A DNA stretch of 64,000 nt from Heliocidaris erythrogramma. Lineage: Eukaryota; Echinodermata; Echinoidea; Camarodonta; Echinometridae. A model generated the notes under the pieces. The model had not been told where the DNA came from and did no database searches. It saw only the letters and a program-made list of their open reading frames with translations. Where the stretch lies: the NCBI GenBank assembly GCA_025617745.1, contig CM046853.1, positions 17,653,036 to 17,717,035 of the forward strand, in the 5' to 3' direction. Each line of letters starts with the position of its first letter. Position 1 is the first letter of the stretch. The translations under genes were made by a program, and so were the position numbers. Below, piece after piece: positions 1,023-51,606 of this stretch.

Positions 1023-1158
1023 GGGTACATTAGGTCGACACCTAACAATGCGGTTTATTCCGTCATAATAGCGACCCCTACATTAGGTAGACAGTTGGTG
1101 TCATTAGGTCGACAGTTGTCTATAGAAATGAGACAAAAACTGTCCTCCTAATGTACCC
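1023..1158 (+). repeat. TTATTCCGTC-core element, copy A
   Basis: A 136-bp element whose ends are inverted repeats (GGGTACATTAGG at the left, CCTAATGTACCC at the right). The shared core TTTATTCCGTC lies at 1054-1064, preceded by AACAATG. Its word is CATTAGGTCGACA. The word occurs near the left end, twice inside (CATTAGG starting 21 bp apart) and inverted at the right end. No clear target-site duplication is visible. A (TA)n run follows at about 1169-1190. Confidence 0.7.
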
Positions 1159-2054
1159 ATTAGGGGTATATATATATATATATATATATATTGATATTGA
1201 CAGTATACCTAAATATCGTTTGTTCCCCTTGTCATGAATTTGAGGTTAAGAATGGGGTAATCTGGCATAATACCATTCATCTTGATTTTAACTACCTTAA
1301 TTTATGAAAAGAAATAATATTGATATTACAAATGTATTTTCTACAGTCAATTTTGACTATGTGTGTTGGTTACAACAGTCAGACTTGGCTGATGCCAATC
1401 AAAACCCCACAAACATCAAGCAAAATTTTGAAGTTGTCTTCTAGTTTTGTCTATTCGGTTATTGATATCACAACTTTCGACTAAGACATTTCAAGAAAAT
1501 TATCACAATCTACCACATTGATAGAAAGCTAAGATGGAAAATGCTCAGAATGAGATAGAGAAAGAAAGAAAAAAGAGGAAGATAGAAATAGAGAGAGAGA
1601 TCGGGGAGATGAAAAGAGAGTAAGAGAAGTTGATAACTGACATAAAGTAGATTGTTTATAATAATTATGTCATTGTAACTCCAAGATCTATCAAACACAA
1701 CTATAGGGATTATTAATAATATGACCTTCATTTTGATAAATCAGAATGAAATACCACAGTATTAGTTAGCAGATAGATAATGTTTTAAAGAGTGCATGAA
1801 GTTATTTCTCTGAAAGTTTAACTTTCATGTGTAAAGAAAGGTGTCTGTACTGTGCAACAATGTTCCTGGTTTAGTTTCCTGGCTTGACTATATGATTAAT
1901 TATGGCATTATATCCTCAACATTATTATATTTTTCAAAAAGATTTTGTAATACTTGCATGTCTTATGATTTACTGTGTTCTGAAAAAATATAGAAAATTC
2001 TTTCATCTCCCTATTAAAGTTCTTATCTTAAATTTCTTCTTATTTTGCCCTAAG

Positions 2055-2192
2055 ATATTAATGAGTGCAGCCGAGGTATCTCCAACTGTCACTTCTTCGC
2101 CACCTGTATCAACATCCCTGGTTCCTACCGATGTAGATGCAATCCCGGTTACCTAGGTGATGGAAGGAGTTGCATTCCCATCATGCCTAGAG
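2055..2192 (+). CDS. Calcium-binding EGF-like domain exon (upstream copy)
   Basis: A 138-nt exon with both flanking introns in phase 1; acceptor ends TAAG and donor reads GTGCGT. It encodes one complete cbEGF module starting DINEC, with six cysteines and the Asn/Asp-hydroxylation type pattern C-x-N-x4-Y-x-C-x-C. Such modules bind calcium and act in extracellular matrix or secreted proteins. By my count it matches the exon at 9332-9469 at about 127 of 138 positions, so one copy arose by recent duplication. It may be spliced to 9332 in one long transcript or belong to a separate upstream gene. A complete small gene (4451-8217) lies between the two copies. The domain call is secure; gene membership is not. 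Confidence 0.8.
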
Positions 2193-2718
2193 GTGCGTTG
2201 TCTGCGTGTTTTCTCTTTAACATATTTTTCGGGATATCTAGAAATGCTTCACTTATTTTGTGTGTTTAAAAAAAGAAGAAAAAGAATTTATAATTAACTT
2301 ATCAGAACAGAAAATAGATGCAAATGTTTTTACTGGAATCCCCTGGTGAACGATACAAATTGCACTTGCTGTCTGGTTACGATGCTGTAAGTTTAGAAAC
2401 ACACCCACACTTTTTTTCCAATGATCTTTATTCTGATTCCACTCAATAATAATACTAACTCATATATCAATATTTCAATGAAAGTGTATAACAAATGAAG
2501 CACATTATCATGTAAAATCTTCTATAAACGAATAACTGAAATTCATTTTCATAAAATAGCCCCCCCCCCCCCCATTGAACAAGGGAAATAATATACATGT
2601 ATGTCATATTACTGCATATACATTGTACTGGCCTCCGTGCACCGATACCCCTACCCCCACCCCTTCCTTCAGTCACTGACATACCCACAAACACACACAC
2701 CCACATTCACATACATGG
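2193..2718. other. Non-coding
   Basis: Intron or intergenic DNA following the EGF exon. It has a 14-base C run near 2561-2574 and CA-rich DNA near 2690. No exon was recognised. Confidence 0.5.
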
Positions 2719-2855
2719 ACTTGTGGGGAACTCTATTTATTTCTCCTATTGTGTTTTGTACCCCACAAGTACTTCTCCTATTGTATTTTGTATCCCACAA
2801 GCATGACGGAATAAAGGGCATCATTGTGCTCTTTTGTTCTCTGTACCCCACAAGA
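2719..2855 (-). repeat. TTATTCCGTC-core element, copy E
   Basis: The core is GACGGAATAAA at about 2805-2815, so the element is oriented on the minus strand. Its word is CTTGTGGGGTACA, seen at both ends in inverted orientation and twice internally. Unlike the other copies the internal words are 32 bp apart, inside a tandemly repeated 32-bp unit. Confidence 0.6.
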
Positions 2856-2888
2856 CTATCTATGTAAAACCACACACACACACCCATT

Positions 2889-3017
2889 TTGTGTGTCTTT
2901 CCCTTTGTTCTCTCTATTGTTCAAATGGCCACACAAGCAGCAAAAATAGCCACACAAGCCTGACGGAATAAAGGCATCTATTGTGTTTGACTGTCCAATT
3001 AGTCACACAAGTATACC
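2889..3017 (-). repeat. TTATTCCGTC-core element, copy F1
   Basis: GACGGAATAAA lies at about 2962-2972. The word is CTTGTGTGGC on the minus strand; its two internal copies (GCCACACAAG on the plus strand) start 21 bp apart at 2928 and 2949. It is an inverted relative of the element at 11651-11786, including the flanking GTACCAACAGAGG and CA-rich DNA. The left end looks eroded. Confidence 0.6.
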
Positions 3018-3222
3018 TCTGTTGGTACACATCCACACTCACACACACCCTCACACCTTTTTTGTTTTTCACATATCCATATCCTGACGACTTACATAGT
3101 CATATCCGACATATAAACAGGAAAAGCTGTTTTTTTTTTAAAAGGTCAAAAGACAAGCTAATAACATTTGAGGCAAAAAAATCATTTCAGTAATTTACAA
3201 TGTTCAAAGCTCAAAAGCTACT

Positions 3223-3471
3223 GTGTTATCATCGTCGCCTGTCTCCCTGCAAGGTTGTCAAACCCGTAATCATCAACAACTAGAAGGGTTCCTCCAGATT
3301 TATGTAGGTCTAAGATCCATGCAGATATACACTGACAAGATGGAATCGCGAGACTATAGAACAAGTTCACTCCTGCAAGCGGCGAAACCGCGTCGACTCC
3401 GTTTGATCGGCCACGTTATGAAGACCCGTAAAATGGGTCCGAGGTACGGAAACACTGCCAAAATTCACTAA
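3223..3471 (+). pseudogene. LINE reverse-transcriptase tail fragment
   Basis: A short frame whose C-terminal part resembles the tail of non-LTR retrotransposon ORF2 proteins: a basic stretch with RRLRLIGHV followed by Met/Lys-rich residues, like the RRLRLxGHVxR motif of LINE tails. No polymerase motifs precede it, so it is a dead fragment at best. The match is short and could be chance. Confidence 0.4.
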
Positions 3472-4450
3472 CGTGTTATCCTTGTTGTATTCAAAACAAC
3501 ATAAACGTACGCCGGCTCATAGGGATCTGCACAAGGAATGCCTTTCTAGGATGGAAGCCATCGTGAGTTCCATCCTGTCAGTGGCTTGAGAGCCAATGTC
3601 CTGACAGCAGCTTCATCACCACTAGCTCAGTCACTGGACGTCCGATGTGTGCTGCTACTCTCGTCCTCTGGAGCCACTAGAGAGTAATGAAGCTATGCGC
3701 AGCAAAATATCGTCATACATGGCGGACAATTAATAAGTTTACTATAATGATGGCTTGGATTAATCGCGCCTTTGGCTCTACATCTGACGATATAATTGCA
3801 TTTATGTATCTCTTTTTTTCTCTCCATCACAATTATGATGCCAAATATGTCAACAATGCCAATTGTTGGGGTAGCATAAGCTATTGAATCCCGTTGCGTG
3901 TTTGATTCTAATCCTTTAATGGCAACAGCCTCCGGATTAATTAATCTTTATTACTACGCCCTCGCAAATGGGATTAATAATTAGGCACCAATATTTCAGC
4001 AATAATAGCTTTCCAAGAGAAAAAAAACACGAAATTGTACTTATTTTACCAAAAACAAATGTGTTTTCCTATGCGGTACTTAAAAGATATTGATAAAAGT
4101 AAATTAATGCAAACATGAGGTCCCCGTTTCATAAAACGGGGACCAGATTTGTTACCAGAAATAACCGGAGGCAATGTACTCTCTACAATTCTTACATTGC
4201 TTACAAAATTATGTAGGTAATCAGGTAATTGGAATGCAATTCTTTGAAATCATGCTAACAAATAATGATAACCTACTTAACCTATTTCGATAATTGAATA
4301 TTAGAATGGCAAAATTTTGCGTCACTTGCTCGACAGGATTTCCGAATCATGGCTTAAAAGTTTGTTGACGAATGCCTTAGAAATTGAGCACGACAGGGAA
4401 GCTGAGATGATACCAGTTTTTTTATTTTGAAGCTGGATTAGATTGTTTTC
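3472..4450. other. Non-coding upstream region of small secreted gene 1
   Basis: No exon was recognised. The last few hundred bases before 4451 would carry the proximal promoter of the small secreted-protein gene that follows. A short inverted repeat CCCCGTTTCAT/ATAAAACGGGG lies at about 4122-4141. Confidence 0.4.
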
Positions 4451-4457
4451 TATATAA
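4451..4457 (+). promoter_or_regulatory. TATA box of small secreted gene 1
   Basis: TATATAA about 30 bp upstream of a predicted start site near 4480 and about 115 bp upstream of a strong splice donor. Gene 2 has the same arrangement at 21183. Confidence 0.6.
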
Positions 4458-4479
4458 GCTACAGAGTTTGCAGAGTATC

Positions 4480-4567
4480 AAAGGAAGACTGGTAGTCTAA
4501 GATCTGAGATCACTCTAAGCCTCCTGTCGTCTGAGCTGAGTTTCCGAACAATATAACTGAGATCAAC
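4480..4567 (+). other. Non-coding first exon (5' UTR) of gene 1
   Basis: A predicted exon running from the start site about 30 bp after the TATA box to a consensus donor GTAAGT at 4568. It has no ATG-led frame reaching the next exon. The start is inferred from the TATA box only. Confidence 0.5.
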
Positions 4568-5039
4568 GTAAGTTACCATTATTCAATATGTGTATTTTAA
4601 AGTCGATACAAGTGTAGATGATAGTTGTAGACCTGTTTCAATTAAAGAAAGAACGTTGCATGCAGCAATTATGTCGATTATCTTTAAGTTGTGACCTCAT
4701 TTGTTTAGTTATCAATAGACATATTTTGCTTCGATATTTGTGAGTTCGGAATTCTTATGATTCAAGGTTCCAACTGTGGGAAAGATAAAGGAATGTTTGT
4801 TAAAATCAAACGAACGCGTTTTTATGTCAGTTTTAAAATAAAACTTGCTTGCCGGGGCTTATATCGGGGGACTGGGAGGGGAGAAGGGAGCCGTTGCGCA
4901 ATAATCAGTTGGAAACTAATCTTCATGATGAGTCAATTAATGAGTCCTTGCGGTTCCTAGTGAATGATGGCCCAATATACTTTCTATCTAGCATGGCTTT
5001 CCCTAGTTCCTCTAATCCTCCACCTCCATTCATATGTCC

Positions 5040-5700
5040 TCTTTGAGCACAACTATGTATGTTTTAGGGGGCCTTCCTCTGTCTGTAGTGGTGTCCATTG
5101 CAAGAGTTGGGAGACAAGTTTTTTCTCCTGAAGCAGTGACCAGCCAGTTTCAGTCTTCTCTGTCTAATCTTAAAGATTTTTTGGAGATGGCCATATAGTT
5201 CTGCATTGCTTATGACTTTGTGCACCTATCTTGACATTCTGGGCTGCTCTGAGCAGACCAGTGTAAAACCATCCTTTTTGTCGGTGATTGTCCAGTATTC
5301 ACATATGCTTTGACTCCCTCTATTAGTCTTCATATTATTGCCAGAGTGTGGCTTAGGGTGCTTCATTAAGCTCGGAATCTATTTTGGCTGATTCTGATGA
5401 GATCATCAGCTTTGAGCGTATTGTTAAGAATCATCTTGTTGAACAGTTTAGCCACCACTGAGGTTAGGCTGATTCCTATGCAGTTTCCAGGATTGCTCAG
5501 TTGTCCCATCTTGGGGATCGGGATAATAATGTTTATCGACTAGATATCTTGGTGGGTTTTTTTCTCCTTTTAATGCTTGGTTGCCAAAGTAAAGTAGATT
5601 TTTTTCGAAGTAATTACACCTTTTAACAACTTGTGGTGATATACTATCCTCTCCACTGCACTTTCCCTCAATCATTGACATTTTTGCTGTGACAAGTTCT
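5040..5700 (-). pseudogene. Degenerate non-LTR retrotransposon (LINE) reverse transcriptase
   Basis: On the minus strand, 5681-5448 encodes a stretch typical of the N-terminal part of LINE reverse transcriptases: GEDSISPQVVK, then LLYFGNQALKGEKNPP, then a DPQDGTTEQSW-type motif. The reading resumes after it with AKLFNKMILN. Further on (about 5210-5050, minus strand) comes a tail with RRLKLAGHC. Several stops and frameshifts break the frame, so it is a relic lying antisense inside intron 1 of small secreted gene 1. Confidence 0.7.
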
Positions 5701-6447
5701 TTGAATCTGAAGATTCTTAACTAATATCCAAGTTTCAAAAAATTGGTTCATATCTCCATCCTCACATTGTACGTTGCCATCCCTTGTTACGCACAGCAAG
5801 TTGTTGATTGGTCGTACCACTGTTTCTTCAACTCTTCAAGAGAATCCCCTTTGAATTGTCCCTTCTTAGGGGGTTTTCTCCCCGTTAGGTCATGGATGAG
5901 CTTCCATGCAGCTTTCCTTGTGTTTGCAGTTAGTAAGTGCTGATTCTGTCATTTCCACTTTCTTGTTTAGGTCCTCTCCTATCACATTCCAGTAGATGTC
6001 ATTCAAGGACATCTCAGCCTGCTTAAATTTTGCTTTAGTATCTTCACTGGTGTCCATTCTGAATATGTTGTAAGCCAGGTTGACTTCCTACCTGGCTCCT
6101 TTGACTCTTGACTCTTTCCTCTTGGACTCACATAAAGAAAAGTGTGCTATTATTATCAAAATGTTCTCTGAACTTGTGTAATTGATAGGCCTATAGAGAA
6201 TAAATAAAGTGGTACTACTTAAAAAGAAAAATGAAAACTTTTATAATTAAAATGTTCTCTGAACTTATTTAATTGATATCCTTATAGAGTAGAATCAAAT
6301 GATACTACTCTTTATAAAGAACTTCTACTGTAATTATTTTTTGAATATTTTGGTCACTGCTATTTATGTATCATCTCCGTATAATAAATGTGACTTGATA
6401 AGAAACATTAATATTTTCCTTTTTGTTCAATTTTTTTTCTTCTACAG

Positions 6448-6508
6448 ATGAAGCCTATGATGTTTACCGTTTGTGTCTTGCTGTGTGCAATGCTGCTAAC
6501 TGTTGAAG
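6448..6508 (+). CDS. Gene 1 signal-peptide exon
   Basis: The acceptor CTACAG lies immediately before the ATG, so the exon starts at the start codon. It encodes 20 residues of signal peptide and ends in phase 1 at donor GTAAGA. Confidence 0.75.
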
Positions 6509-7728
6509 GTAAGACATATATTTTGCTCTTTATATCTCATCTAAGTTCTTTCTTTTTACTTGACCTGGGGTGTTTCATAAAGCTGTTTGTGAGTTACGCA
6601 CGACTGGTGATCAGTTCTTGTGCTAAACGATTGAGAATCTGATTAGTATAGCACCCAAGAACATGTTCCAGTCGTTCGTAAAGTCATTCGTAACTTTACG
6701 AACAGCTTTATGAAACACCCCCTGCTGAGGATCTAGTGAATACACGTTGACACACCAATTCCATCGACTCTGGAGTTCCTATAACTTTTTTTTTCATTTC
6801 ACAGTGAAAGTAAGAATTACATCGAGGAATAAACACCTCGGAAAATGTATGTGATCCACAATGGAATGTTTCACTAAAAATTGATCTTTTGTATAAAAGG
6901 AAATCTTTTCCATCTGGTTGGTTATTCAGAGTGTATATGAAACTATATTTCTTTTACTATTACTGTATTTTGAATCAAAGAGCATAATATTTGTTTATTT
7001 GGCGTTTTTTTGTTTACCAACTTATTTCTGTGATTCTGGTATTTGTTGTTTGTTGTTTTTTGCATATTTCCTAAATATTCCATTCACGAATAGATATTTA
7101 TATATATACATAATTATATTTCAAGTATATGCATACTTTACTGTACATGTACACACATTGCGTATGCATTACGTAATATTTTGTATTTCACTTGTTTGAG
7201 GATAAAATGTCTATATGATTTGAAAATGAAGATATAACTGCTTTCAAAATCATAACTATCTCTTTCTTCCATTTAGAAAAAAAAGCAAGAGAATATTTGT
7301 TAATTAATATAAGTTTTGTATTTTATCATCATTACTTCATCGCATTTTAATGTGGATATTTTACCCCTGTTTGAACTGGATCCACAGCAAAATGATGATT
7401 ACTTTTCACTATATAAGGAAAACATCAGATAAACACGAGGAGAACATTAAAAGAAGAGCATAAATTTTGCAAATTTGAGGTATTTTAGTCTCGGTTGAAA
7501 TCATATACCCTATTAATCTTGTTATATTCCAATCCAGGTCGTCATCGACACAGGCGATCTTCAAGCAGCTCTGGCAGCAGTTCTGGCAGCAGCTCTGGCA
7601 GCAGCTCTGGCAGCAGCAGCGAAGAGGCCGCCGCGGCTACCACTGCGGCCCCTACCGCAGCACCAGCCCCCGGCCACGGTAGCTACTACTCCTGTACCTA
7701 TAGCGACAATGGTAATGGTTCCTGGTAA
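6448..7728 (+). CDS. Small secreted Ser/Gly-Ala/Pro-rich protein (gene 1)
   Basis: Two coding exons, 6448-6508 and 7538-7728, join in phase 1 to give an 83-aa protein. Residues 1-20 are a hydrophobic signal peptide. The mature part begins with a basic patch (RHRHRR), then Ser-rich blocks of SSSG repeated four times, then SEE, an Ala/Thr/Pro stretch and a Tyr/Asn/Gly-rich tail with one cysteine. SSEE contains an S-x-E pattern, the type phosphorylated by secretory Fam20C-like kinases. There is no membrane segment, so it is probably secreted. It is paralogous to gene 2 (21629-23517) by exon plan and by the basic-to-Ser/Glu opening of the last exon, but lacks gene 2's cysteine exon. Echinoderms have small acidic biomineralisation proteins of this general style; I do not recognise a named one. 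The function is unknown. Confidence 0.75.
6567..6721. mobile_element. MITE with GGGGTGTTTCATAAAGCTGT termini
   Basis: A 155-bp element in intron 2 of gene 1. The terminal GGGGTGTTTCATAAAGCTGTT at 6567 is matched by AACAGCTTTATGAAACACCCC at the right end, with further inverted similarity inside (ACGAACGACTGG-like). It is non-coding. The transposase superfamily is not determined. Confidence 0.8.
7538..7728 (+). CDS. Gene 1 terminal coding exon
   Basis: The acceptor AATCCAG is followed by a phase-1 exon of 63 codons to TAA at 7726-7728. A 12-bp unit coding SSSG is repeated about four times near its start, a site expected to vary in length between alleles. The reading frame also stays open upstream of 7538, but that part is intron. 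Confidence 0.75.
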
Positions 7729-8211
7729 TACGATCCCGTAGAGGACAAGTGTGATACCAATACAGCCTTCATCTCCACATCAACATCATCTATTTCCCGC
7801 CTCTACGCCAGATTTTGAGATAGGCTGATAGATTCATACACAATAAGATTGTATAATCACTGTATTTCTACCATGCATATCAATTTTGTAAAGCGCGAAA
7901 GCAACAGAACATTTCTCACTCTGTCTCGGGAAGCTTATTGAACATGAACGACTCGCCTTTACCACAAAAGTTATAGGAACTAGTCAATATTTGCAGATCT
8001 ATAAAAAGTTCATAATGTTTAGATACGTCATTTAAATTCTGTGATATATTTTATGGATGATTTCTGGATAAATAATTGCAATATGTAATAATATGATCTA
8101 CGTCTGGTAGTTTCAACTCGGTTTCTATAATACATCTAGACAGTCACAGAAGCAATCACAGATTTCGATTTTCAAAACATTCTTTGTTTTTTTGTTTTAT
8201 TACTCTGTGAC

Positions 8212-8217
8212 AATAAA
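8212..8217 (+). terminator. Poly(A) signal of gene 1
   Basis: Canonical AATAAA about 480 bp after the stop codon of gene 1. I see no earlier AATAAA in the 3' region. Confidence 0.55.
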
Positions 8218-8477
8218 TTCAGCATTTCTCTGATATTTTTTGGTCATTCAATTTAATTTCGTTTGTAGAAGAACAAATCGTCATTAATAAACCATACAGA
8301 AAACAGTGGACTATCGTGTATGTATCCGAATCTCTCTGTTGAGTAAGTGTTGGAAGAAACTTGCAAAATGATGTTGGTGCAGCGAATGTTGTTAAAAGGG
8401 AAAATATATAGTGTGAAAACAGAGAGAAAGAGGGGGGGGGGGGGGGGGCGTGGAGAGAAAAAAAACTATGGTCAGTT

Positions 8478-8800
8478 TCATCACCATTCGTAGCCAAAAA
8501 GCTCAAGCTACGGTCATAAAGGTTCTCACTGTTCGTACGAATTCCGGAGTTCGTAGAGATTCGTAGATGGGGCATAGATTCTTACGGCCTTCTTACGAAG
8601 TTCGTACGAACGCCGATTAATTCGCAAGAACAACTTAAGACCTTCTTGAGAAACGTGATTTTAGGTTATACAATGGCCCTAGTCTACGAACGGTCTACGA
8701 ACGCTAGTTTTGTACGGCCTTCTTGAGAAGATCTTACGAAATGGTCTAGAAATCGTTCGTACGGCGTTCGTAGCAGTTCTTAATGGTTGTGACCGAGGCT
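8478..8800. repeat. Element rich in TTCGTACGAA-type words
   Basis: A dense set of short related words in both orientations: TTCGTACGAA and derivatives, CGTAGAGATTCGTAG, TACGGCCTTCTT (twice) and CTTCTTGAGAA (twice). It looks like a decayed inverted-repeat transposon. A run of about 18 G precedes it at 8430-8448 and GA-rich DNA follows at 8810-8930. Boundaries are approximate. Confidence 0.5.
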
Positions 8801-9331
8801 TTAAAAGAGAGGGAGAGCGAGAGAGGGGATTAATGTGAAAGAGGGGTGAGGAGAAGCATGAAAGAAAGAGTGGGAGAGAGAGAAGGAGAGAGAGAAAAAA
8901 AAAGGCAGAGAGAGGGAGGAAATAGAGTTGGATAGTCAGGTCTATTATCATGATAATAGAGAAAACTCCGAGAGTAATCACATTCATTTTCAACGGAGTG
9001 GGATAGAATGATAAAATTTAAAAGCAGAACATTTTGAAGATGCCTATCTAAAAGCCGGGTTTACTAATACTACATTAAGGACTATGACCTTGAAGTTTGA
9101 TGCCTGGAACAGGCATGTTCTTCTCACCTTTTCCTTTGACCTTGAGAATATGCAAATTTTGTTATTCAAAATCAAGCACTCTTTTTTTTTAAATGAATAT
9201 TTTTACATGTTCAAATGAATGATTGGCTATATATATCGTAGTTTCTTCCAAATTGGCAACGTAGTTGGATCGTAAAGTTTGCGATGGTGAAAAGAAAGCT
9301 TTTAATTGTCTTCTTTTCTGGTTTTCAATAG

Positions 9332-9469
9332 ATATTAATGAGTGCAGCCGAGGTATCTCCAACTGTCACTCCTTCGCCACCTGCATCAACATCCCTGGTT
9401 CCTACCGATGTAGATGCAATACCGGTTACCAAGGAGATGGTAGAAACTGCATTCCCATCGCGCCTAGAG
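9332..9469 (+). CDS. Exon: calcium-binding EGF module 1
   Basis: 138 nt, phase 1-1, acceptor TTTTCAATAG, donor GTCAGT. It encodes a cbEGF module beginning DINEC with six cysteines; near-duplicate of 2055-2192. Confidence 0.85.
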
Positions 9470-12400
9470 GTCAGTTGTATATCTGTATCACTGATCACTC
9501 TTGAGCATTGATTTCCGGATGTCTTCTGAGGATATATATTTTCTGTTCTTTATTTTGTATCCATGTATTTTTTAATTTCATTTAAATAATTTCCATTCAT
9601 CTACTTTTCTCCGCTCTCTATATTTGATCCTTTTTCTTTTTTTCTTTTTTTTAAACCAGATGCAGAAATAGACCTGCTAGATTTTCTTATTTTCTTTTCG
9701 TCAATTCTTACTTTCTTTCAAGATATCAACGAGTGTGAGATGAAAGATTCCGCATGTCATCAAAATGCATTGTGTGTAAATACAATGGAAAGTTACCAAT
9801 GTATCTGCAACAGTGGGTATATTGGCAACGGTACTCACTGCGCTCAAGTTGGTAAGTAATCATTCATTGGAATAGTTCACACCACTTTTCACATAGACAC
9901 ATTTTAAACGTTAAGTCAGAACGATAGAATAGCGGATCCCACATACTCTAGCTGCGGGGGGGGGGGGGGGGCACATTAAAACAAATTATGACAAGCAGTG
10001 CCCCAGGGGTCCGCCATGCACTGCGAAGACATGTTTGATGCGTATAGTATTGCTTTTCTGAAATTAGCACTTAGCTTAATAAAAAAAACAAGCAGGAACA
10101 AAATGTTTGTTAACAGTATCTTTATTTTATTTGTAATTCATTTGTCGGGGACAAAATATTCATATTGTCACTGGTACTTGATTACACTGAAGACATTCCC
10201 ATCTCCTTCTTCTAAGCTTTAGAAACCCTGACGAGGGGCGATATCCCGTGTGTTCGTGGTGTGAACTGTACTGATATCGACACAGCAATGGCAGACTATT
10301 CGCAACCGACGAGTAAGCTTTCCAAAGGTGGGAAGTTTATCGGAGATAAATCAGGTGATGATATCGAATGCACAAGTAAGTGCTGATCAGTCCGTTTCCA
10401 TTTATCTGTAACACTGTCCTGCTATGAGTCATTGTTATTTTTTAATACTACAATCTTTTTTGCTATGTTAGATAGATATATTATACTCCTATACGTATTT
10501 TTGATAAAAGAGAAAACAGGAATTGATTGTGGAAAGCTGACGGCTCACGACTGCATTTACATTGATTTGTCTTCACTTTATACACTATAATAACATGTAA
10601 CGGAAAGTTAGTCTTCAAATATGAATTAGAAAGGTGGAATGAATTAGACTTCATAAGTGATTTGTTGAGAAAAAAAACTCTGAAGATGTATGATTTGTGC
10701 CCTCGTCATGAAAGGACGCTTAAATTTCAGCATTTTTCCTTTAATTAAATGGTATCACACCGGTCATTTGACCCCTTTCCTCTTTCCCCCTCTTTCTCAT
10801 AATATAGATGACTACATGCCTCCATTTGTAAATCTCACAGTGATTGCAATTGACCATCTCGATCCAACAATTGACATCGCTTCAAACAGCACGGTAATTT
10901 CGGCATTTGTCGCCGATCCTTCGGCAGAATTCGGCACCGTTCGGATAGATTCGGCCTTAACCGGACCCGATGGTGTGGCCAGATTGTCAGTGCCTCACAA
11001 TCAGACGATTATCATCACTGCAACACGAGATGAATATCTAGCCAATTCTATTACTACAAAGGCAAATCTTAAACAGAGTGAGTAGAGTTTATTATGCTCA
11101 TACTATTAAAAACGGGATGAAAGACAGACAAACGTGCAGACAGCATAATAGAAAGGAAGAGATAGAGACAGATACAGAGACAGGGAGACAGAGACAGAGA
11201 GACAGCGACAGAGAGAGAGACAGAAAGACAAAGAGACAAAAGTTGTTTAGAGTGGTGGGGGCCTCTTGCATTCAAAGTTGGTTGAAAATTTTCAACCAAT
11301 TAGAATCGCGTATTACAACTTGGGCGTGTTTAGCCGTATGTCCGAGAACATTTTCGGACAGAGAACAAAAAAAAATCATGAGAACAATGGTCCTCGGAAG
11401 CCGGACAATAGTCCTCGAACGTCGAACAATGAATTTGTGCCTTATTCCGTCGACTGTCCGAGGACGGAGGAACAATAGAGGAACAATACTTGTCCTCGGA
11501 AATAAAGCAATACAAGACTGTGTGTGTGATTGTGTGCGTGTGTGTGGGTATGTGTTTTATATAGAAATAAATAAAGATTACTGAAAAACAAAAAAAAAAT
11601 TGTTTGTGTGTGTGTGTGTGCGTGCGTGTGTATGTGTGTGTACCAACAGAGGTCTACTTGTGTGACTAATTGTACAGTCAAACACAATAGATTCCTTTAT
11701 TCCGTCAGGCTTGTGTGGCATTTTTTGCTGCTTGTGTGGCTATTTGAACAATAGAGAGAACAAAGGGAAAGACACATAAGTATACCTGCGTGAGTAGGCG
11801 TGTTTGAGAAGCGGTTTTTACGCAAATTGTTATGCAATAGACCACATGAGTGCTATTTTTTAAAATAGTGAACAGAAATCCACAACTTTTCTTACCATTC
11901 ATCTTATATGATGTTTAAAATGAATAATCAACATAACCAAGGTAAAACAAAAGACATTTTTATTTTTTGAAAGACAGTATCTTCCTCAGTTCATGTCAAC
12001 TAGGCATTTCAAATACCGAGTGCATGAGAACAGTTATTCTCCATAATTTTTTATGTGCCATATTGCTTTAGTGACATCCGTTTCATGGGTTACCACATTT
12101 TGTACTGTCAAACATTCAATATATTCATTATGAGAGACACACCGTGATAATGTTTTCGCTTACCTAGAAGTTGTCTATTTTAGTGTTGACATTGTCTTCT
12201 AATTTCATACAGATAATGTTGTGACCATACCCTTGGCAGTATCAGACGTGTTTAACATGTTTCTTTGGCGTAGAGCCACATCAAATACCGTTGAGTTTGG
12301 ACGGGGCAATAGCGGAGCACTATATAGGGTAGCCTTTCCAGTAGGTAAGAATTCAACATTGCATACATTTTGATAGCATGCCAGAATTTTTGCTTGACAA

Positions 12401-12449
<49 letters not shown>

Positions 12450-15400
12450 TTTTGGGGGGGGGGGGGAGCATGTATGTAGGTTTTGAATGTAACGTGTGTG
12501 TATTTTGTATATGTTGTCCATATAATGCAATTATTCAAAGGAGATTTCATGACCCCCTCACAGGCAGGATATAGACCAACGTGTCTTTTCCTTCTTTTTT
12601 CGTCTAAATTGTTCTGTGTCACATGAACTATTTCATTAATTAAAAGGAAGCTAAGTTTGTGCGGGTAAGTTTACAAAACATGCATTATCTAATAATCATA
12701 AAATTATGTTTATAGATAAAGTTACATTTTCTTGTAGGTGGACTGTTTGTTCCAGAAAGGGTATTAGTGGAAATTGAATTCTACGAAGTCAACATTACAA
12801 ATCTTGAAGATTTTCAACATGCCCCAGAATTAATTGCAGTGGTTCCTAAAGGTTTGTTTTTTTCCATCTAATGTGTAGATCTATGGTGTAAATGGCATGA
12901 ATATCGAATAATAATAATAATTATTATTATTATTATAACTCTAACTGCGACTTAGGGCGAAATCTTTTATCTCATTCTTTTGTTACGTTTCGCCCTAACC
13001 CACACTCGTTTCGCCCGAACGTTGAGTTTCTATTTTGACGGAATAAACCTATTGTTAGGTTTCGCCTTAAGTCGCAGTTAGGTAAATACCACTGTTCTTG
13101 TATAGCGCATATTACATTATGATATAACGTCCCTATGCGCTTCCAAAGGGTTTTGGATATTATTACCCTGGCTTTAGCTCCGGCAGCCGTAATCAGCGCA
13201 CAGTGCATTTCAAGGAATAAATCCTGCCAGGTACCCATTTACTACACCTGGGTGGAGAGTGGCAAATGTGGATTAATGTCTTGCCAAAAGACGCTTGCCA
13301 AAAGACGCTTGCCAAATCGAAACAATGATGATTTCATTTAACCCTAAAAGGGCCGGGGGTAGAATCCACCCCAGACGTTTCTCGCGATATGTCCGCAACG
13401 CGCGAAGCAATCACCGCGGCGTTTCATGATATTTTTCTTTCGAATCTCACGCACCTTTTGAGACCAAATTCGCGATGTCCGGACATGCGGTTCCGAAGTT
13501 ACGCAACATTTCGTACTTGCACGTCAGACCGAAAATTGCTCAAAAACGTGATTTCATGTATAATTTCAATACACAATGTGTTTCCAGCAAAAATTTAGAA
13601 ATCTATGAATATATTTACATTTGCTGATTGAAATTAATTTATTTTAGGCTGTTTATGTTCGCGAAAGTGTCCCCGACAAATTTCATCAAAAGAAAATAAA
13701 AAACAAAAGGTAATAAAAACAAAGAAATACATAAATTTTAAATACAATAAAATACATAAGAAATCAATTTTGATACCAAATATTTTTCAAGTATATTTGC
13801 TAAGAATACTGGAAAGAGTGTCTAGACCAAAAATTAGCATATTTTGAGCTTTATTTAACGATTTAAAGCAAAATTTTGATTTCATGCATAAATTTGCATA
13901 ATTAATGTGACACTTTTTCAGAGCATTTAACTATACAGTTTTGTAGATTACGTTGTGGACGACGTGCGTGCCGATTTTCGGCGCAATCGCACGGTCGAGA
14001 TATGAGGGGGGGGGGGTGGATTCCACCCCCCCCCCCCGGCTGTGGCTTAGCCAAAATATCCCGGCCCTTTTAGGGTTAAGATAAAAAATGTATTTTGGTT
14101 GCACAAGGGATTAAGCCAGGGACAATGAGTCCCGAAATTGTTAAGCCTGTGCTTTTTTTGAGAGAGAGCATCAAAATATCAAGAAGCTATCTTTGAGAAA
14201 AGGGACATCGTCCCAAGTATACCGATCGCCAGTTAATTCAGTCACGATAGTTACCAACGATTTATAGATCAACAATAATCTATAACAAGTAAAAAAAAAT
14301 GTAAACACCAATGACATCTCTCTTGGAACATTGTTCATTGGTTTCTGAAATATTGTCTTGTCGAAATAATGAGCCTGTCTCAACGACCCATATCATTATT
14401 CATAGTTTTTATCCCAGATACATTTTACACCTTCTTTGCCTGTCTATTTAAAAATTTGCCCATTACCAGCATTACCAGAACAGATTTAACTTTCTTAAAA
14501 TGAATGAATATTTTGTTTCAATTTATTTTTTTTCTCGCCGTTACAGTACCTCTTGTGGAGTTTGGACGACGGGACAAACAAGAAATTATACGTAAGAAGA
14601 TGACAACTATAATAAGAAATTGTCATCAATAACATCTGTCGTCTAAATATATAAAACAATTACCAGGAGGGAACAGTGTTCTCAAGCGGTCTTTCTCTTT
14701 GTGGTATTTTTCATCGTTTCACGTGTCGCCCCTTTAGTACATAATAGTGAGTTTTCGAATGTGTCGTAGTGAACGCCGTCCTAGATCCCCCACCTACAAT
14801 GGACTGCTTTGTGTTAACTGCATATCGCGCTTTGTGCAAGAACGGCTTACCCGTTCACTTGCTCGTCCACGAGTCAGATCGAGAACGCGTCAAACATGGT
14901 ATTGCCGTCTTCTCTAAAACGTGAACCTCGTTTCACCCATTGTTAGCTTCATGCTTCACCTACGTTGTATACAGTTTACACAAAGCAGTTCATTATCCCT
15001 GGGAGGATCTAGGACGGCGTTCACGTCGACACATTCGAAAGCTCCCTAATATCGTTTTTAAGTGCCCAATAGACCTGTTTACTAATTTTATGCATACTTT
15101 TTGAACAAAAGTTTCTCTTGACGACTCAAAAGCTTGCAAGAGGCTTGCCCGACATAGCAACAACTAATGTATGCAAAATGGATTCCATCTATAGAGATGC
15201 CATTATGCATAGTAGGTGCACCAAATAGTTGGTAACTAAGGATTCTGGAGATAAACATCCATAAATTTGACAACTTAGTAAACAGGTCTATTGATCGGTC
15301 TAATTAGCATTAGCATGTTAGTGCTATAAGCCATTCTACAGTAGGATACCCTATTGAAACCGTAAGCTGTGTCTGTGACTGTGACTTCAATCACCTCAGT

Positions 15401-34896: not shown

Positions 34897-35280
34897 AAAG
34901 TTTTCCCTCCTCTTTTAATGATTTGCAATTTTGCATAAATAAAAAAATCATGATTGGAAGTACCATTGAAGGGGGGGGGGGGGGGTGGGGAAACACTGTC
35001 ATTTACAGATGGAATCGGCTTTCTCCGGCCAGACAGAAACTTACAACCAAAGTTAACTTGAACTTGAACTTTATTTATCCAATAACAATACAAAACATGA
35101 AACAAAATATATACAAATTTAAATATAACAGAGTAAAGGATAAAAAGGAACCAGAAAAAAAGCATGAATGCTAAACGAGTCTGGTACCTTTAAACATTGG
35201 AAAACAATGTTTGGTAATAGAATAAGTTTACAAGAAAAATGTAATGGTAAATATGAAGAGGATTATATATATAACTCTAT

Positions 35281-35418
35281 ATGGTACCTTAGCAGGACAG
35301 TGCTTTGTTAGGAGCATTGTCTGAATGTCCTGCTAATGTCCGCGAGTGTCCTGCTAATGTACAGCAATGTATTGTGACGGAATAAACCTCATTGTTCACT
35401 GTCCCGCTAACGTACCAT
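35281..35418 (-). repeat. TTATTCCGTC-core element, copy B
   Basis: 138 bp with inverted ends ATGGTACCTTAGCAGGACAG and its near-perfect inverse. The core GACGGAATAAA is at about 35376-35386. The word is CATTAGCAGGACA, with internal copies 21 bp apart. Every block sits at nearly the same offset as in copy A, although the word differs in the middle (GCAGG versus GGTCG). Confidence 0.75.
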
Positions 35419-38400
35419 CCAGTGATATAAACAAAACTATAATACAAATATAATGGATGAATAAACATTGTTTGGTAATAGAATGAACAATGAAAAATGT
35501 AATGGTAAATATGAAGAAGATAATAAACAAAACTATAATACAAATATACATATAAGTGGATGAAAGGTCAGTATCAAATATCTATCAGTTTAATCAGATA
35601 CTTAATACCATTTAGCTACATTTATTTGAAAGAAATTATAGTGTGAGACCATCTACTTGTACATTTAACATTGTAAATGAACTAAGAAAATATGTGTAAA
35701 TTATACATGACCCTGAGCAAAGTGTATAATTATCGTTATTCCGCAGGTGTTACATTTTGATTATTTCTGTTCATTTGTACAGAATTAGCCAATTAGTCTT
35801 TCACGTGGCACTGATAGCATATATTTGTGTTTGCATTTTGTAACAGTCAGAATTGGGACAGGAGGCAAAATTGTATGTTATTCTTTCCCTGGAACTCCAG
35901 TGGTTGTCTAAATCTGAATTTGTTAAGTTTTGAATTATGAAGTTGTATTGAATAGGGCCTATTTTCTTCCCTGATCGAGTAATTTAAAGAAAAGAAGAAA
36001 ATAAAAGTTGTGCGGCCCACACATTGATTGAATGATAGTGCTACATGTGTATGGACATGTGTAGGTACATGTACATTTATAAATCTACATGTAGGCCTAC
36101 TTGTACCAGTATGAGAGAAATCACAGGTTAATACAAAATAAAAGAATTATTTTGTGATAAAGCAGTATATTCTGGTGCATTATTATTCAGAAACCCACCA
36201 GGAAAGGGCAGAAAACACATGTAATGTACTTTACAAAGGGGCAGGAATTCCTACACCAAATAGGCGTCTCATGAGTGAGCCAGGGAATGCGATTGTTTGC
36301 TAGAGTTGGAGCATCCAAGTGCATGCTGTGGGCTGACGTCTCCTCAGGGAGTCTCGTGCAAAGTTCGCTGCATTGATCTGTAGCAGAGGAGTGAAGATTC
36401 CTCCAGAATTCACTGAGTTCAGGTTCATTCTTGCAATCAATAGTGCTCTGCACATGTACAGTTGTGTGTTTCCTACATGCTCTACATGTACATCTAGGCC
36501 TTACAATACATGACTTGTATCATAATCTGTTTGTTGCATGAGCATGCAATCTTTTAGATTGCTCAAGAAAAAAATGAAGGCATTGTTCCAATTTATTTCT
36601 CTGAGAGTCTGAATGCATTAAATGATATTAATATAGCATGTGGTAACTTCGGATTTAAAGAGAAGGTTGAGTTCTGGGAAAGGTGAAAAATAATTTGTGA
36701 GCTTTCTCATTGCCTTTAATTTCATGTCAGTTTGGAAGAACATCATACTTAAAAATGTCTCCTGAAAAGGATTGCTCTTCCAAATGTCCTCATTTTTGGA
36801 ATGTGACGAGGAATAGCTGAAGTGTTCGGGCCGAACGTTCATGCTACATGTGTGTGCAGTCCCATGTACCCATTTCTGTGTGCAGTGCATACACTATTCA
36901 ATGAGATTGGGTCAGTTCCTTTATATCATTTTGATAGTTCAAAACCTCACAGTAATGAGTATATACCAATTCTGATGTACATGTAGCCAACCTTTCCCAA
37001 CTGATTAGAGACAGTTTCTTTCACAATGAAGCTTGTGACAGAGTGGGCTTTTGGTAATTCTGAAGAACATGTGTATGTACATGTAGGCCTATTTGGAGTG
37101 GTAATTAATTTGTGTAAATTCATGAATTGAGAGTTACATTACAAGTGAAGGTTTGTTGGTCTGTTGAAATATGTCCAATTGTGTGCATGTTCATGTACTC
37201 TTTCTAAAGTAGTTTTTTTTACTTCAGTCAAATCTAAAGCCTTGAATTGACGGCAGTATTTGTGTGAATATTGCTGACATCATAATTTTCCATGAAAAAT
37301 GAAAGTGAAAGGTAACTTTTAACATTAGCAATAACATTTGGCATACTTGACAGTAATAATATTTTGTAGGCCACCATATTTCTTAACACCAGAAACTCAT
37401 GCGTGCAAGAAAAAAACTTTCACGAAATATCATGAGTGGTCCAGATTTGTGAAAGTTTCTTGCTGCTAATTGATAAATTACAACACAGCACGAACTGACA
37501 AAAGGTTTTTTGACACCAAACTTGCAGTTTGAGGAGAGTTGTGGTTTAACACACGTTCATGTATAACTGGCTCTCTGCCAATAATTAATTCCCTCTTTCA
37601 ACCAGATTTTTTTTTGTTTACCTTTATATTCATGTGATCCCCTTCATGTACATGTACATCTACTGTCATTGTACATGTAGTTTTATTCACACTTTTAGTA
37701 TATCCAAAGATAATTGTAGCATCCATAAGTTTACTTTTACGATAAATTGTACTTTTTTCTGGCATGTACATGTACTTGTACACTTTGGAAATGGAATGTA
37801 GCCTACATGTATACTACATGCCACTGTAGGTCTCCATTCAACTCTTACACATTTTACTTTTGATAAAGAAACCAAAGGGCTTGTCTCAAGATTATTAAAA
37901 GCAATTGGAAACTGTACCTTAATTAAAAGAATTTAAAAGAATTTAAAATGAAAGGCACATACTTGTAAAAGTAGTGCCCTAATCCAAAACACCCCAATGG
38001 GTAATATTGTGGTTAATATATAGTTATGCCCCCTGCTGTTATTTAATTAGTAAGTACTTTATTGTTTCCTACTTCTAGGCAAATCCAATTTCCTGTTCTT
38101 AGAAGTATTATGGTGTTGATTTCCATTTGAAGGGCAGTGTACTTTGTAGAGCTGTACATTACATACACAACAGGTACTGCATTTGTGAACGGGGCTTGGT
38201 GCTCAGGTACATGGGGTGCTGGAGTCACTATAAAGCAGCCCCAAATATGTACACACACTGTAATCCTGATATTCACTTGTCTTCAGTTCTAATGTAATTA
38301 CTAAGGGGAAAATTACCCTAGAACAGAAAAAAAATACACAGAAAAAAAAATACACAGAATGAAAAAATTCAGATTTGCCACTAAAGATGTTGGAAATATG

Positions 38401-45960: not shown

Positions 45961-46010
45961 TATCTTGCAGGGTCTTGCTAGAAGAGTGAAGTGTGTGGTG
46001 GTCAGGCAAC

Positions 46011-47831
46011 ATGCCCAGAAGGAGGTTCCTCAACGAAGATGAGATCCAGGAGGTTATTGATGGATTCATGGCTGACGACAACAGCGAACATGGAGACGAT
46101 GATTATCTTCTCGATATGGAGGCTCGAGAGGCAGGGTACGACATGTCTGATGACGACGACAGGTCTGATGACGACGAAGAGCAAGTGGACATCCAAGATG
46201 ACATCCCAGATAACTATATGGAGGATGCTTATGATGATATGTGGTGTCGTGCATTTGATCATCGTGTAGGACCTCTTCTTCGCGCACCTCTTGATGAAGT
46301 CACACCAAGTGAAGTTTTTTCCGACTTCTTGTCAGCAGAGATCATCGATAGAATAGTTGTGGAGACGAATCGTTATGCGGACCAGTACTTCAGGAGAGTA
46401 GGAGGGAAAGATAACCTGTCTCCTTGGTCCAGGGCAAGGACCTGGATACCAACTTGTCCAGGAGAGATGAAGGCTGTAATAGGAATCATCTTGTACACCG
46501 GTTTGGTTCGCTTGCCAGCGTACAATCTGTACTGGAGTAGGAACTCACTGCTTGATCTCGGCATTAAGAGCATCATGTCACGGGACCGCTTCATGCAGCT
46601 GTTATCTTTTCTTCACCTGGCAAACAACGAAGATGCTCCTGAAGGTGACGATAGAGATCGACTTTTCAAGGTGAGAGGGGTGATGGATATGTTCACAGAG
46701 AGATGGGTTGCGAATTTCTACCCTGGTCGTGAACTTAGTGTCGACGAGACAGTCATAGCGTTCAAGGGAAGGACTCGGTTCACACGCTATAATCCCAACA
46801 AGCCTCATAAGTGGGGGATGATAGCTTGGAGCCTCTGTGATGCCAACACTGGCTATGTACAGAATTGGAATATCTCCACTGGGCAGGAAGTCCAGGAGAA
46901 CGATCGCGGGGCCATGCACCAGATAGTGATGGATGTTTCATCCGGCTACTTGAACAATGGTCATCACATTTACATGGATAATCTCTTTTCTTCTCCAAGT
47001 CTATTTGAAGAACTGGCCATCAACGACACTGGTGCATGTGGTACCCTCAGAGCTAACCGGAGAGGTGTCCCTGATGTGATTAAAGCTCACAAGCCCAAGA
47101 AGGACGATCCACCATTAGTAGTAAAGGAAGGGGACATCACTTATATTTCGTGGGCTGACAAGCGACAAGTGAAGCTCATCACGTCAGTACATAATGGAGA
47201 GACTTTCATCAAAGAAGTCAGAGCAAAGAATGGTCCAGAACACAGGAGGAGATATGTCAAACCCAAGGCTATCGAGCTCTACTCACAGAATATGGGCGGA
47301 GTCGACCTTGCTGATCAGCTTCTCTGGCACTCCCTGAACATCCACAGGTCCTGCAAATGGTGGAAGAAGATCTTCTTCGCTCTTCTCGAGGTATCCTTCT
47401 GTAATGCCGTCATCGTGCTTAGGGCCCTCAATATAATGAAGCCAGCTCATCTACAAAATAGGATCGACGTGAACAAAGTACGGCTATCCATAATCACTGG
47501 CCTTCTTGCAGATTACGAGAGGCCGTATGCTATTCACGTCGGACCAAGACTAGTGGATGATCAACCACTAAGACGACTGACAGAGAAGCACTTCCCTGCG
47601 AACAACCCCAAGAGGAAGAGAGATGGGAAACCAGGTTTCCGTGACTGTGAGGTGTGCTCAGACAGGGAGAACAAACGCCACCAAACATCAGCGGTTTGCA
47701 GAGACTGTGGGAACGTCCCCCTTTGTGAAAAGCCATGCTTCAGACTCTACCACACGCAAAGGAACTACAAGATGGCCTGTACTCATGCGTTTCACCTTGA
47801 GATTAACGATGACGAGGCCGTGGAGCAGTGA
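46011..47831 (+). CDS. piggyBac transposase, intact
   Basis: 606 aa from ATG 46011 (context GGCAACATG). This enzyme cuts and pastes DNA at TTAA. The N-terminus (1-80) is acidic, with runs of Asp. The DDE_Tnp_1_7 region follows. The expected catalytic aspartates are D245 in LSVDETVIAFKGR, D323 in YMDNLFSS and D432 in MGGVDLADQ. A C-terminal Cys-rich finger starts at C546 (CEVCSD, VCRDCG, LCEKPC, YH). No stop or frameshift breaks it, so it is young, active or conserved as a host gene. A possible acceptor TCTTGCAG at 45963-45970 suggests a spliced 5' UTR. It lies inside TTAA-bounded ends 2.8 kb upstream and 7.2 kb downstream. Confidence 0.95.
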   Translation: MPRRRFLNEDEIQEVIDGFMADDNSEHGDDDYLLDMEAREAGYDMSDDDDRSDDDEEQVDIQDDIPDNYMEDAYDDMWCRAFDHRVGPLLRAPLDEVTPSEVFSDFLSAEIIDRIVVETNRYADQYFRRVGGKDNLSPWSRARTWIPTCPGEMKAVIGIILYTGLVRLPAYNLYWSRNSLLDLGIKSIMSRDRFMQLLSFLHLANNEDAPEGDDRDRLFKVRGVMDMFTERWVANFYPGRELSVDETVIAFKGRTRFTRYNPNKPHKWGMIAWSLCDANTGYVQNWNISTGQEVQENDRGAMHQIVMDVSSGYLNNGHHIYMDNLFSSPSLFEELAINDTGACGTLRANRRGVPDVIKAHKPKKDDPPLVVKEGDITYISWADKRQVKLITSVHNGETFIKEVRAKNGPEHRRRYVKPKAIELYSQNMGGVDLADQLLWHSLNIHRSCKWWKKIFFALLEVSFCNAVIVLRALNIMKPAHLQNRIDVNKVRLSIITGLLADYERPYAIHVGPRLVDDQPLRRLTEKHFPANNPKRKRDGKPGFRDCEVCSDRENKRHQTSAVCRDCGNVPLCEKPCFRLYHTQRNYKMACTHAFHLEINDDEAVEQ

Positions 47832-48639
47832 ATAGTTTAGTTCTATTTAGTACCATAAATTGCTTGTAATATGTATGAAATTGCCAGGGAAAGATAACAG
47901 ACCACACAGAAATTATCCTAGGCAGACACAAATATTTTGATCATGTGTTGTGCAAGTTCAGCTACATAATTATATACTTACCATTAGATGAATTCAATTG
48001 CCATAATCTAATAAGTGCAATGTAATTTTTGATGCAATTAAATTTTTCTGTTATAGAAAGACAAAAATATTCCACACAAACTATCTTTCTTATTATAATG
48101 CATTGATACATTTGATAATTTATTTTTTCATATATCTTCATGCACGTCACCTGTTTTGGTGGACGTGCTACTTGCCATGCTAGGTTAATTGCGCTTGTGC
48201 AATAATATTCTTATGCCTGGGATTGAGTGAATGTTTATATATTTTATCTTGCTTTATAATAATATTGTTCAAATGATATAAGTGCAACAAAAGACTTTGT
48301 GCACTGTTTCACGATAGTTATGCCACGGTATGATTTAGATAATAGATGTATTCAATTAATTAAAAAGACCATTTTCATTGCCAAACACAATATTGATAAT
48401 TCAAAATTGTATCTAATGTTCTACAAGTATGTTATTATATTCAAGGAACACATGTTAGAACTGATTTGAAATAAGCACATGATTTGTTGTTTCTCGTAAG
48501 AATTAAATTGCTGTGCACCCATGAACTATACTACCTATGATTGGTGGTTTGATTTTTATAGTAAAAGTAGTAATATTTTAATGTTTTAGGAATATAGAAT
48601 ATAGTAAAAGTATTAATATTTTAATGTTTTAGGAATATA
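47832..48639. other. Non-coding, between transposase and minisatellite
   Basis: AT-rich. No canonical AATAAA was found close after the stop codon. A direct repeat of about 40 bp containing TATTTTAATGTTTTAGGAAT occurs at about 48570-48643. Confidence 0.5.
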
Positions 48640-51505: not shown

Positions 51506-51606
51506 AGAGCCCCCCCCCCCCCCTCCAATCCATCCCGGTCAATGACAAGCTATTGCCTCCCTATTCCAAAAATCACGTGCTTTGATATTACTCGACTTCG
51601 CTCCTT

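Follow-up and report, generated by a model that had tools for sequence, protein, structure and literature searches.

Elements with a common core in the window

The window analysed here is a 64-kb stretch of contig CM046853.1 of the sea urchin Heliocidaris erythrogramma (64,000 nucleotides, positions 17,653,036 to 17,717,035 of the forward strand). It contains seven short elements built around a common core, which we regard, with a probability of about 0.65, as representatives of many families of short non-autonomous DNA transposons of the type of miniature inverted-repeat transposable elements (MITEs), situated in microsatellites and carrying family-specific words that would co-evolve with a predicted word-binding protein. 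The 10-mer TTATTCCGTC occurs exactly at seven sites in the window, every one of them within an element (Table 1). The core extends to the 12-mer TTTATTCCGTCA in six of the seven, element 4 having the form given in the table, and ACAAT begins 9-16 bp upstream of the core in all seven, which confirms what an earlier inspection of the letters alone (referred to below as the sequence-only reading) had noticed. Over 1,190 bp read on the core strand there are 17 occurrences of ACAAT vs 2.4 expected, an enrichment.

Table 1. Core-carrying elements of the window and the empty site of element 7
Feature	Position	Strand	Word	Core	Remarks
Element 1	1023..1158	+	CATTAGGTCGACA	1054-1065	
Element 2	2719..2855	-	CTTGTGGGGTACA	2804-2815	TG strand is the core strand
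Element 3	2889..3017	-	CTTGTGTGGC	2961-2972	family shared with element 5
Element 4	11341..11500	+	TGTCCGAGGACA (palindromic)	11441-11452 (CTTATTCCGTCG)	
Element 5	11651..11786	+	CTTGTGTGGC	11696-11707	(TG)n adjoins on the core strand
Element 6	12941..13081	-	TTAGGGCGAAAC	13036-13047	arms 12941-12965 and 13057-13081
Element 7	35264..35425	-	CATTAGCAGGACA	35375-35386	insertion of ~162 bp
Empty site	35463..35563	+			duplicate of the element-7 flank without the element; approximate limits

In core orientation, elements 1, 2, 3, 5, 6, and 7 begin with a left word, followed by ACAAT, the core, two internal words in direct orientation, and a right word that is inverted. Relative to the start of the core, the word centres lie at -21, +32, +53, and +92 in elements 1 and 7 (all four offsets equal), at -19, +32, +53, and +89 in element 6, at -34, +19, +51, and +88 in element 2, and at about -34, +19, +40, and +77 in elements 3 and 5. 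The internal words are spaced by 21 bp in elements 1, 3, 5, 6, and 7, and by 32 bp in element 2. The arrangement proposed by the sequence-only reading, a word inverted at both ends and present twice inside, with nearly constant length and offsets, is found in these six elements and breaks down in element 4, which is longer than the others (~160 bp) and has about six copies of its palindromic word in another array order. Element 4 does have a 21-bp word pair, situated upstream of the core and on the opposite strand; the 21-bp internal spacing claimed for six of the seven elements stands for five. The inverted arms of element 1 extend to ~1009-1040 and ~1141-1172 and (TA)n adjoins them, while the left end of element 3 extends to ~3025 and its right end is devoid of the outer repeat present in element 5. 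Element 6 adjoins ATT/AAT repeats and, by eye, the tail of a short interspersed element (SINE).

The 10-mer alone, with at most one mismatch allowed, is not unusual in the window (8 matches, a number reached in 6 of 100 shuffles). The non-random part of the pattern is the exact core together with the word array. When both strands of the window were scanned for the four-word plan (L-I1-I2-R: left word, two direct internal words, inverted right word) without use of the core, the threshold score of 38 was reached at six of the seven elements and nowhere else; it was reached in none of 20 block-Markov shuffles (one strand each). All six elements found in this way contain the exact 12-mer core. A single-strand fold was rejected as the common feature, three of the six folded elements being far stabler than shuffles and three not, and an Rfam search of the window gave no match.

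Genome-wide occurrence, spacing, and the core

The pattern counts cover 1,064,227,859 bases of this animal genome in 26 contigs (~1.06 Gb), with the backwards version of each pattern as a control. ACAAT-N(1-12)-TTTATTCCGTCA is present in 5,831 copies vs 5 for the control, including the sites of classes 2 and 3 described below, and the 10-mer in 14,301 vs 5,300. The sites studied individually are a non-random sample from contig C1, comprising the first listed places up to ~25 Mb, and nearly all of those outside the window were picked by the exact core. With identical copies and near-edge sites excluded, the C1 stretches and the window give 112 distinct core sites, of which 41 fit the four-word plan in a free-distance search. 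Thirty others belong to the element-4 family, the most frequent one in the sampled sites, and nine to the GGTCATCGG family (L387), both with arrays of their own; 10 are of class 2, 16 have ACAAT and the core without a fitted array, and six are of other kinds (three of them, by eye, element-2 or L424-type elements below the threshold), the family labels among the unfitted sites being based on simple motif matches. The genome-wide check suggested by the sequence-only reading bears out the pattern in part, through the counts, the 41 fitted sites, and the 39 sites of the two families with other arrays, but the 10 class-2 sites lack such words and 16 sites are unfitted. When the free-distance fit was applied to 336 chance cores from viral and prokaryotic contigs, none succeeded.

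Among the 41 fitted sites, the distance from the left to the first internal word is 51-53 bp in 36, 56-59 bp in three, and 38 bp in two, and the internal spacing is 20-22 bp in 35, 29 bp in one, 32 bp in three, and 15 bp in two. The DNA helix makes one turn in ~10.5 bp. At this pitch the same-strand spacings of 21, 32, and 53 bp, recurrent across families, correspond to 2.0, 3.05, and 5.05 turns, which suggests helical phasing of the words.

The core is identical at all 12 bases in eight family representatives aligned without gaps (two of the ten listed, having other spacing, were excluded), and the spacers vary. The core-free scan of 361,224 fetched bases, most of which had been chosen for the core, gives 56 distinct matches at the same threshold; the exact core is present in 32 of them, and the other 24 have at least four mismatches, many of the latter being plain simple repeats; none of the 56 has the core at one to three mismatches. 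In the SINE-like stretch next to element 6 (by eye, 13090-13270 on the minus strand, with its 3' end against the element) there is GGATTTATTCCTTGA, the core at two mismatches, possibly by chance.

A chance origin of the pattern is rejected by the core-free scan against shuffles, the backwards control, the 336 chance cores, and the slot shuffles of the words given below. No viral or prokaryotic relatives were seen: the first GTDB scan gave no match, and the matches of the first viral scan (88) and of the second GTDB scan (24) have the appearance of chance ones. Among the matches listed, none of the 349 core sites in these loci and in those retained from two 14-base viral scans scores above 30 vs at least 39 for the six window elements. 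Neither TTTATTCCGTCA nor its complement was found in a literature search; the 10-mers occur in 27 papers, one example being an onion polymerase chain reaction primer.

Agreement and divergence of the words

In six window elements (element 4 left out), 13-base words taken at fixed positions show a mean identity of 0.84 within an element and 0.44 between elements. The values for single elements range from 0.77 to 0.90, with copies differing at up to 4 of 13 bases, so the strict agreement of all copies claimed by the sequence-only reading does not hold. The claimed difference between elements does hold on average, with the reservation that elements 3 and 5 belong to one family and the words of elements 1 and 7 are similar (0.76). 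When the regions of the six families are re-paired, the observed match is reached in 1 of 720 arrangements for left with internal, 3 of 720 for left with right, and 3 of 720 for internal with right. The excess of within-element identity over that between elements, proposed as a check, is also found for 11 family representatives, some of them related (0.87 vs 0.59 at the best register), and their observed agreement is matched in none of 20,000 slot shuffles. The words are not freely swapped: most TA/ATT families vary one loose pattern, TTA-x4-GA, represented by TTAGGTCGACA, TTAGCAGGACA, TTAGGGCGAAA, TTAAGGCGAAT, and TTATGGGGACA, with TTTGGGAGACA near to it.

Single slots have variants of their own. 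In 12 distinct copies of the element-1 type the right word is GGAGGACA in 10, GGAGGATA in one, and GGAGAACA in one, while the left words all end in GTCGACA (12/12) and are divided between AGTCGACA and GGTCGACA, six copies each, indicating that the left slot changed within the family. In the element-3 type the left word is CTTGTGTGACTAA and the first internal one CTTGTGTGGC in 7/7 copies, in the element-6 type the left word is CTTAAGGCGAAAC and the right one CTTAGGGCGAAAT in 5/5, and the left word CGTTAGCGGGACA is kept in element 7 and its sibling (2/2).

Insertion sites and orientation

The elements are short, possess terminal inverted repeats, and occur in many copies, as MITEs do. Element 7 is a 162-bp insertion, of which a tandem duplicate of its flank is free (one case). 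They are filed as MITE-like by their repeats, copy number, and this one empty site, with no transposase superfamily assigned. A TA or TTA duplication is possible, by eye, in several copies, the targets being simple repeats.

Of the 76 sites whose flanks were examined, 43 belong to four families (E4, E3, E2, and L387) that adjoin (TG)n. TG runs of the core strand lie to the left in 29 of the 43 and to the right in 34, and CA runs flank none. The other word families are mostly next to runs of TA, ATT, or AAT; a CA run is also present at one L382-type site. Eighteen pairs of neighbouring cores lie within 400 bp of each other and may form linear arrays, nesting having been judged by eye only; 16 of the pairs share one orientation, 11 of these with a TG/CA run in between. 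The two opposite pairs have no such run; the pair in L354 has the appearance of a single element bearing core-like sequence at both ends. The orientation may be set either by the target or by growth of the repeat from the element ends. Among the arrays, in L369 three copies of element 4 follow one another head to tail at distances of 195-206 bp, and in L413 members of the element-3 and element-2 families lie 130 bp apart in the same orientation.

The core outside the word arrays

Two further classes of elements carry the core. Clear terminal repeats are present in five class-2 loci (L375, L376, L384, L385, and L392), whose elements are ~330-390 bp long and whose repeats measure ~22-53 bp and are quite different among loci; for L367, L372, and L378, also of class 2, no good terminal repeat was found. 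Class 2 has in common the core and, with variants, the palindromic CATGAATATTCATG, and carries the stretch ATACGGTTTATTCCGTCAAGACTAGTCGGCATGAATATTCATG or near variants. By eye, part of it resembles a transfer RNA (tRNA), but neither ARAGORN (8 sources) nor Rfam (the five class-2 loci) detected a tRNA. For the 13 fetched loci Rfam gave two good tRNA matches, both in the flank of L353, a borderline one in L445, and microRNA matches below threshold only.

Class 3 is an element of 1.15 kb (L445:3263-4412) whose terminal repeat measures 31 bp and which carries ACAATACGGTTTATTCCGTCAAG close to the left end; the core module is located 54 bp in from that end, and the right end is coreless. Part of L433 matches the interior of this element at 86%, its left end being unmatched. 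The presence of one module in elements otherwise dissimilar by eye is the most puzzling point of the analysis.

Interpretation and alternatives

Most likely, the word is bound by a sequence-specific protein that belongs to the mobilising machinery. Each element would offer it four sites, one per terminal inverted repeat and two internal ones, at distances of 2 (or 3) and 5 helical turns; word sites at whole-turn distances would bring the bound proteins onto one face of the DNA. ACAAT, which follows the left word at a distance of ~1-2 turns, and TTTATTCCGTCA would most likely accommodate a component that all families share, which may be a constant part of the transposase or a host DNA-bending factor. 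A change of the word-binding protein would split families, and all four sites would follow it under selection, so that words are alike within an element and unlike from family to family. The elements build up in microsatellites. Co-variation with a DNA-binding protein, one of the suggestions of the sequence-only reading, fits best the word agreement and the near-whole-turn spacings, the binding itself being predicted from the sequence. If this is true, the elements would be a natural series of transposon families with constant geometry and core and a changing recognition word, in which the joint change of a DNA-binding protein and the multiple sites that it binds becomes readable, and which would show how transposon families become independent of one another. 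They would also be an animal case of the microsatellite-linked mixed-element arrays found in plants, with (TG)n families in fixed orientation.

Several points weigh against this interpretation. The constancy of spacing may come partly from descent, and the invariance of the core is partly due to construction, since the representatives were found by the core. Classes 2 and 3 have ACAAT or ATAAT and the core without a comparable word array, which indicates that the core can occur independently of the words. With simple repeats as targets, no target-site duplication could be delimited. A transposase gene carrying the same termini and core, for which the sequence-only reading advised looking, was not found: the core is present in none of the 30 best Harbinger loci (~3.4-3.5 kb each; 150 scored of 581 candidates) and in none of the six fetched loci with a Mutator-like element (MULE; of 31 matches), the ends of the elements possibly lying outside the fetched stretches in both cases. 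No 8-11 bp duplication of the MULE kind was established for the elements. In the six MULE loci no long inverted repeat was seen, again suggesting that their ends may lie outside.

The high identity of words within elements and the low one between families could also result from copying or gene conversion inside the element that rewrites the word and keeps its copies identical, and the 6:6 division of the element-1 left word attests to a change of that slot within a family. However, recopying of the word at each move would erase the differences between slots, and these are retained: slot variants are kept in 11/12 copies (element-1 right), 7/7 (element-3 left), 5/5 (element-6 left and right), and 2/2 (element 7 left), and the copies within one element are not identical. 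The retention of slot-specific variants in the three families checked argues against rewriting, which is very improbable, and favours a slow co-evolution of the words with a protein that binds them. It is distinctly unlikely that a strand-specific mechanism of the rolling-circle or recombinase type, with iteron-like words, inserts the elements into simple repeats in one orientation. Such a mechanism would account for TG runs without CA runs on the core strand and for the co-orientation of 16 of the 18 core pairs, but growth of the TG repeat from the element ends would fix the orientation trivially, and terminal inverted repeats suit a cut-and-paste mechanism better.

Two other explanations concern the core. 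ACAAT resembles the HMG-box/SOX site, and the core with ACAAT might be a promoter or enhancer module borne by unrelated transposons, ensuring germ-line expression or open chromatin and acting outside the transposition complex. Its recurrence in classes 1, 2, and 3, by eye otherwise unrelated, and its location inside the left end of L445, with the right end coreless, speak for such a role, which is nevertheless unlikely, as non-coding MITEs need no promoter, yet the six window elements found without use of the core hold it exactly. The sharing of the module across unlike classes is also the basis of the possible, though doubtful, view that ACAAT-TTTATTCCGTCA is a portable module of unrelated inverted-repeat classes recognized by one constant factor, with a variable adaptor for each family word, the two making up a two-part lock with the (TG)n or (TA)n landing site. 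In such a lock the diversifying address would stop families from mobilising one another.

Comparison with known systems

In habit, the nearest known kind are the SaTar, MiM, and MuTAnT elements of plants, judged by the cited accounts. SaTar elements of guayule and rice are described as small non-autonomous inverted-repeat elements of 400-1700 bp, assigned to MULEs, with 10-bp duplications, which form many families, are flanked by microsatellites, and occur in linear mixed arrays (PMC5907723). The elements described here share with them the many non-autonomous inverted-repeat families in one genome and the microsatellite flanks, and differ in their animal host and in the invariant core, the co-varying internal word, and the orientation lock, none of which is part of the SaTar description consulted. 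MuTAnT of Medicago (PMC4486113), the Ac-mMITEs of pineapple (PMC8449440), and the MiMs of carrot and other plants (PMC8227079) are short elements located in (TA)n. An autonomous mudrA-like element has been described for MuTAnT (PMC4486113); like SaTar, MuTAnT and the pineapple elements have been assigned to MULEs, and clustering is reported for the SaTar and pineapple elements (PMC5907723, PMC4486113, PMC8449440). Unlike these three kinds as described, the sea urchin elements have a fixed core with family words and lie in (TG)n and (ATT)n as well.

The IR/DR structure of Sleeping Beauty comprises four similar, non-identical transposase sites, two in each long end, and the transposition is assisted by a host HMG-box protein and requires at least ~300 bp between the ends for efficiency (PMC7827188). 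Four similar but non-identical sites per element are found here, too; unlike in that account, three of them point one way and one the opposite way within ~140 bp. DINE-1 elements and Helentrons are abundant in animals, have subterminal inverted repeats, a T-rich or TT target, a 3' palindrome, and ties to microsatellites, and insect elements that disrupt (GAAA)n or carry (GTCY)n are cited in the same paper (PMC4067079). The present elements resemble them in their abundance in an animal, their inverted repeats, and their link to microsatellites, and are set apart from DINE-1 and Helentrons as described there by the family-specific co-varying word. A lineage-specific repeated word accompanied by an invariant motif is known from the iterons of geminivirus-type Rep systems, from which the present elements differ in being chromosomal and having terminal inverted repeats.

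Transposase frames and other features of the window

Several Harbinger transposases of the genome are represented by open frames of identical score on different contigs, as if recently active. The window itself has an open frame of 612 amino acids (45993-47831, plus strand) for a piggyBac-type transposase with a zinc finger, more than 10 kb from the nearest exact core; its best named relative is from a scallop (45%) and a further one from a sea star (40%). Other features of the window are a stretch read as an EGF-like coding sequence and a plexin-like frame, for which the named relative listed is that of the sea star Asterias (36% identity), others scoring higher. Finally, positions 48557-51528 comprise ~2.9 kb of degenerate GA-rich tandem repeats with long spurious frames, one of which gives a chance-looking Corona_7 match.

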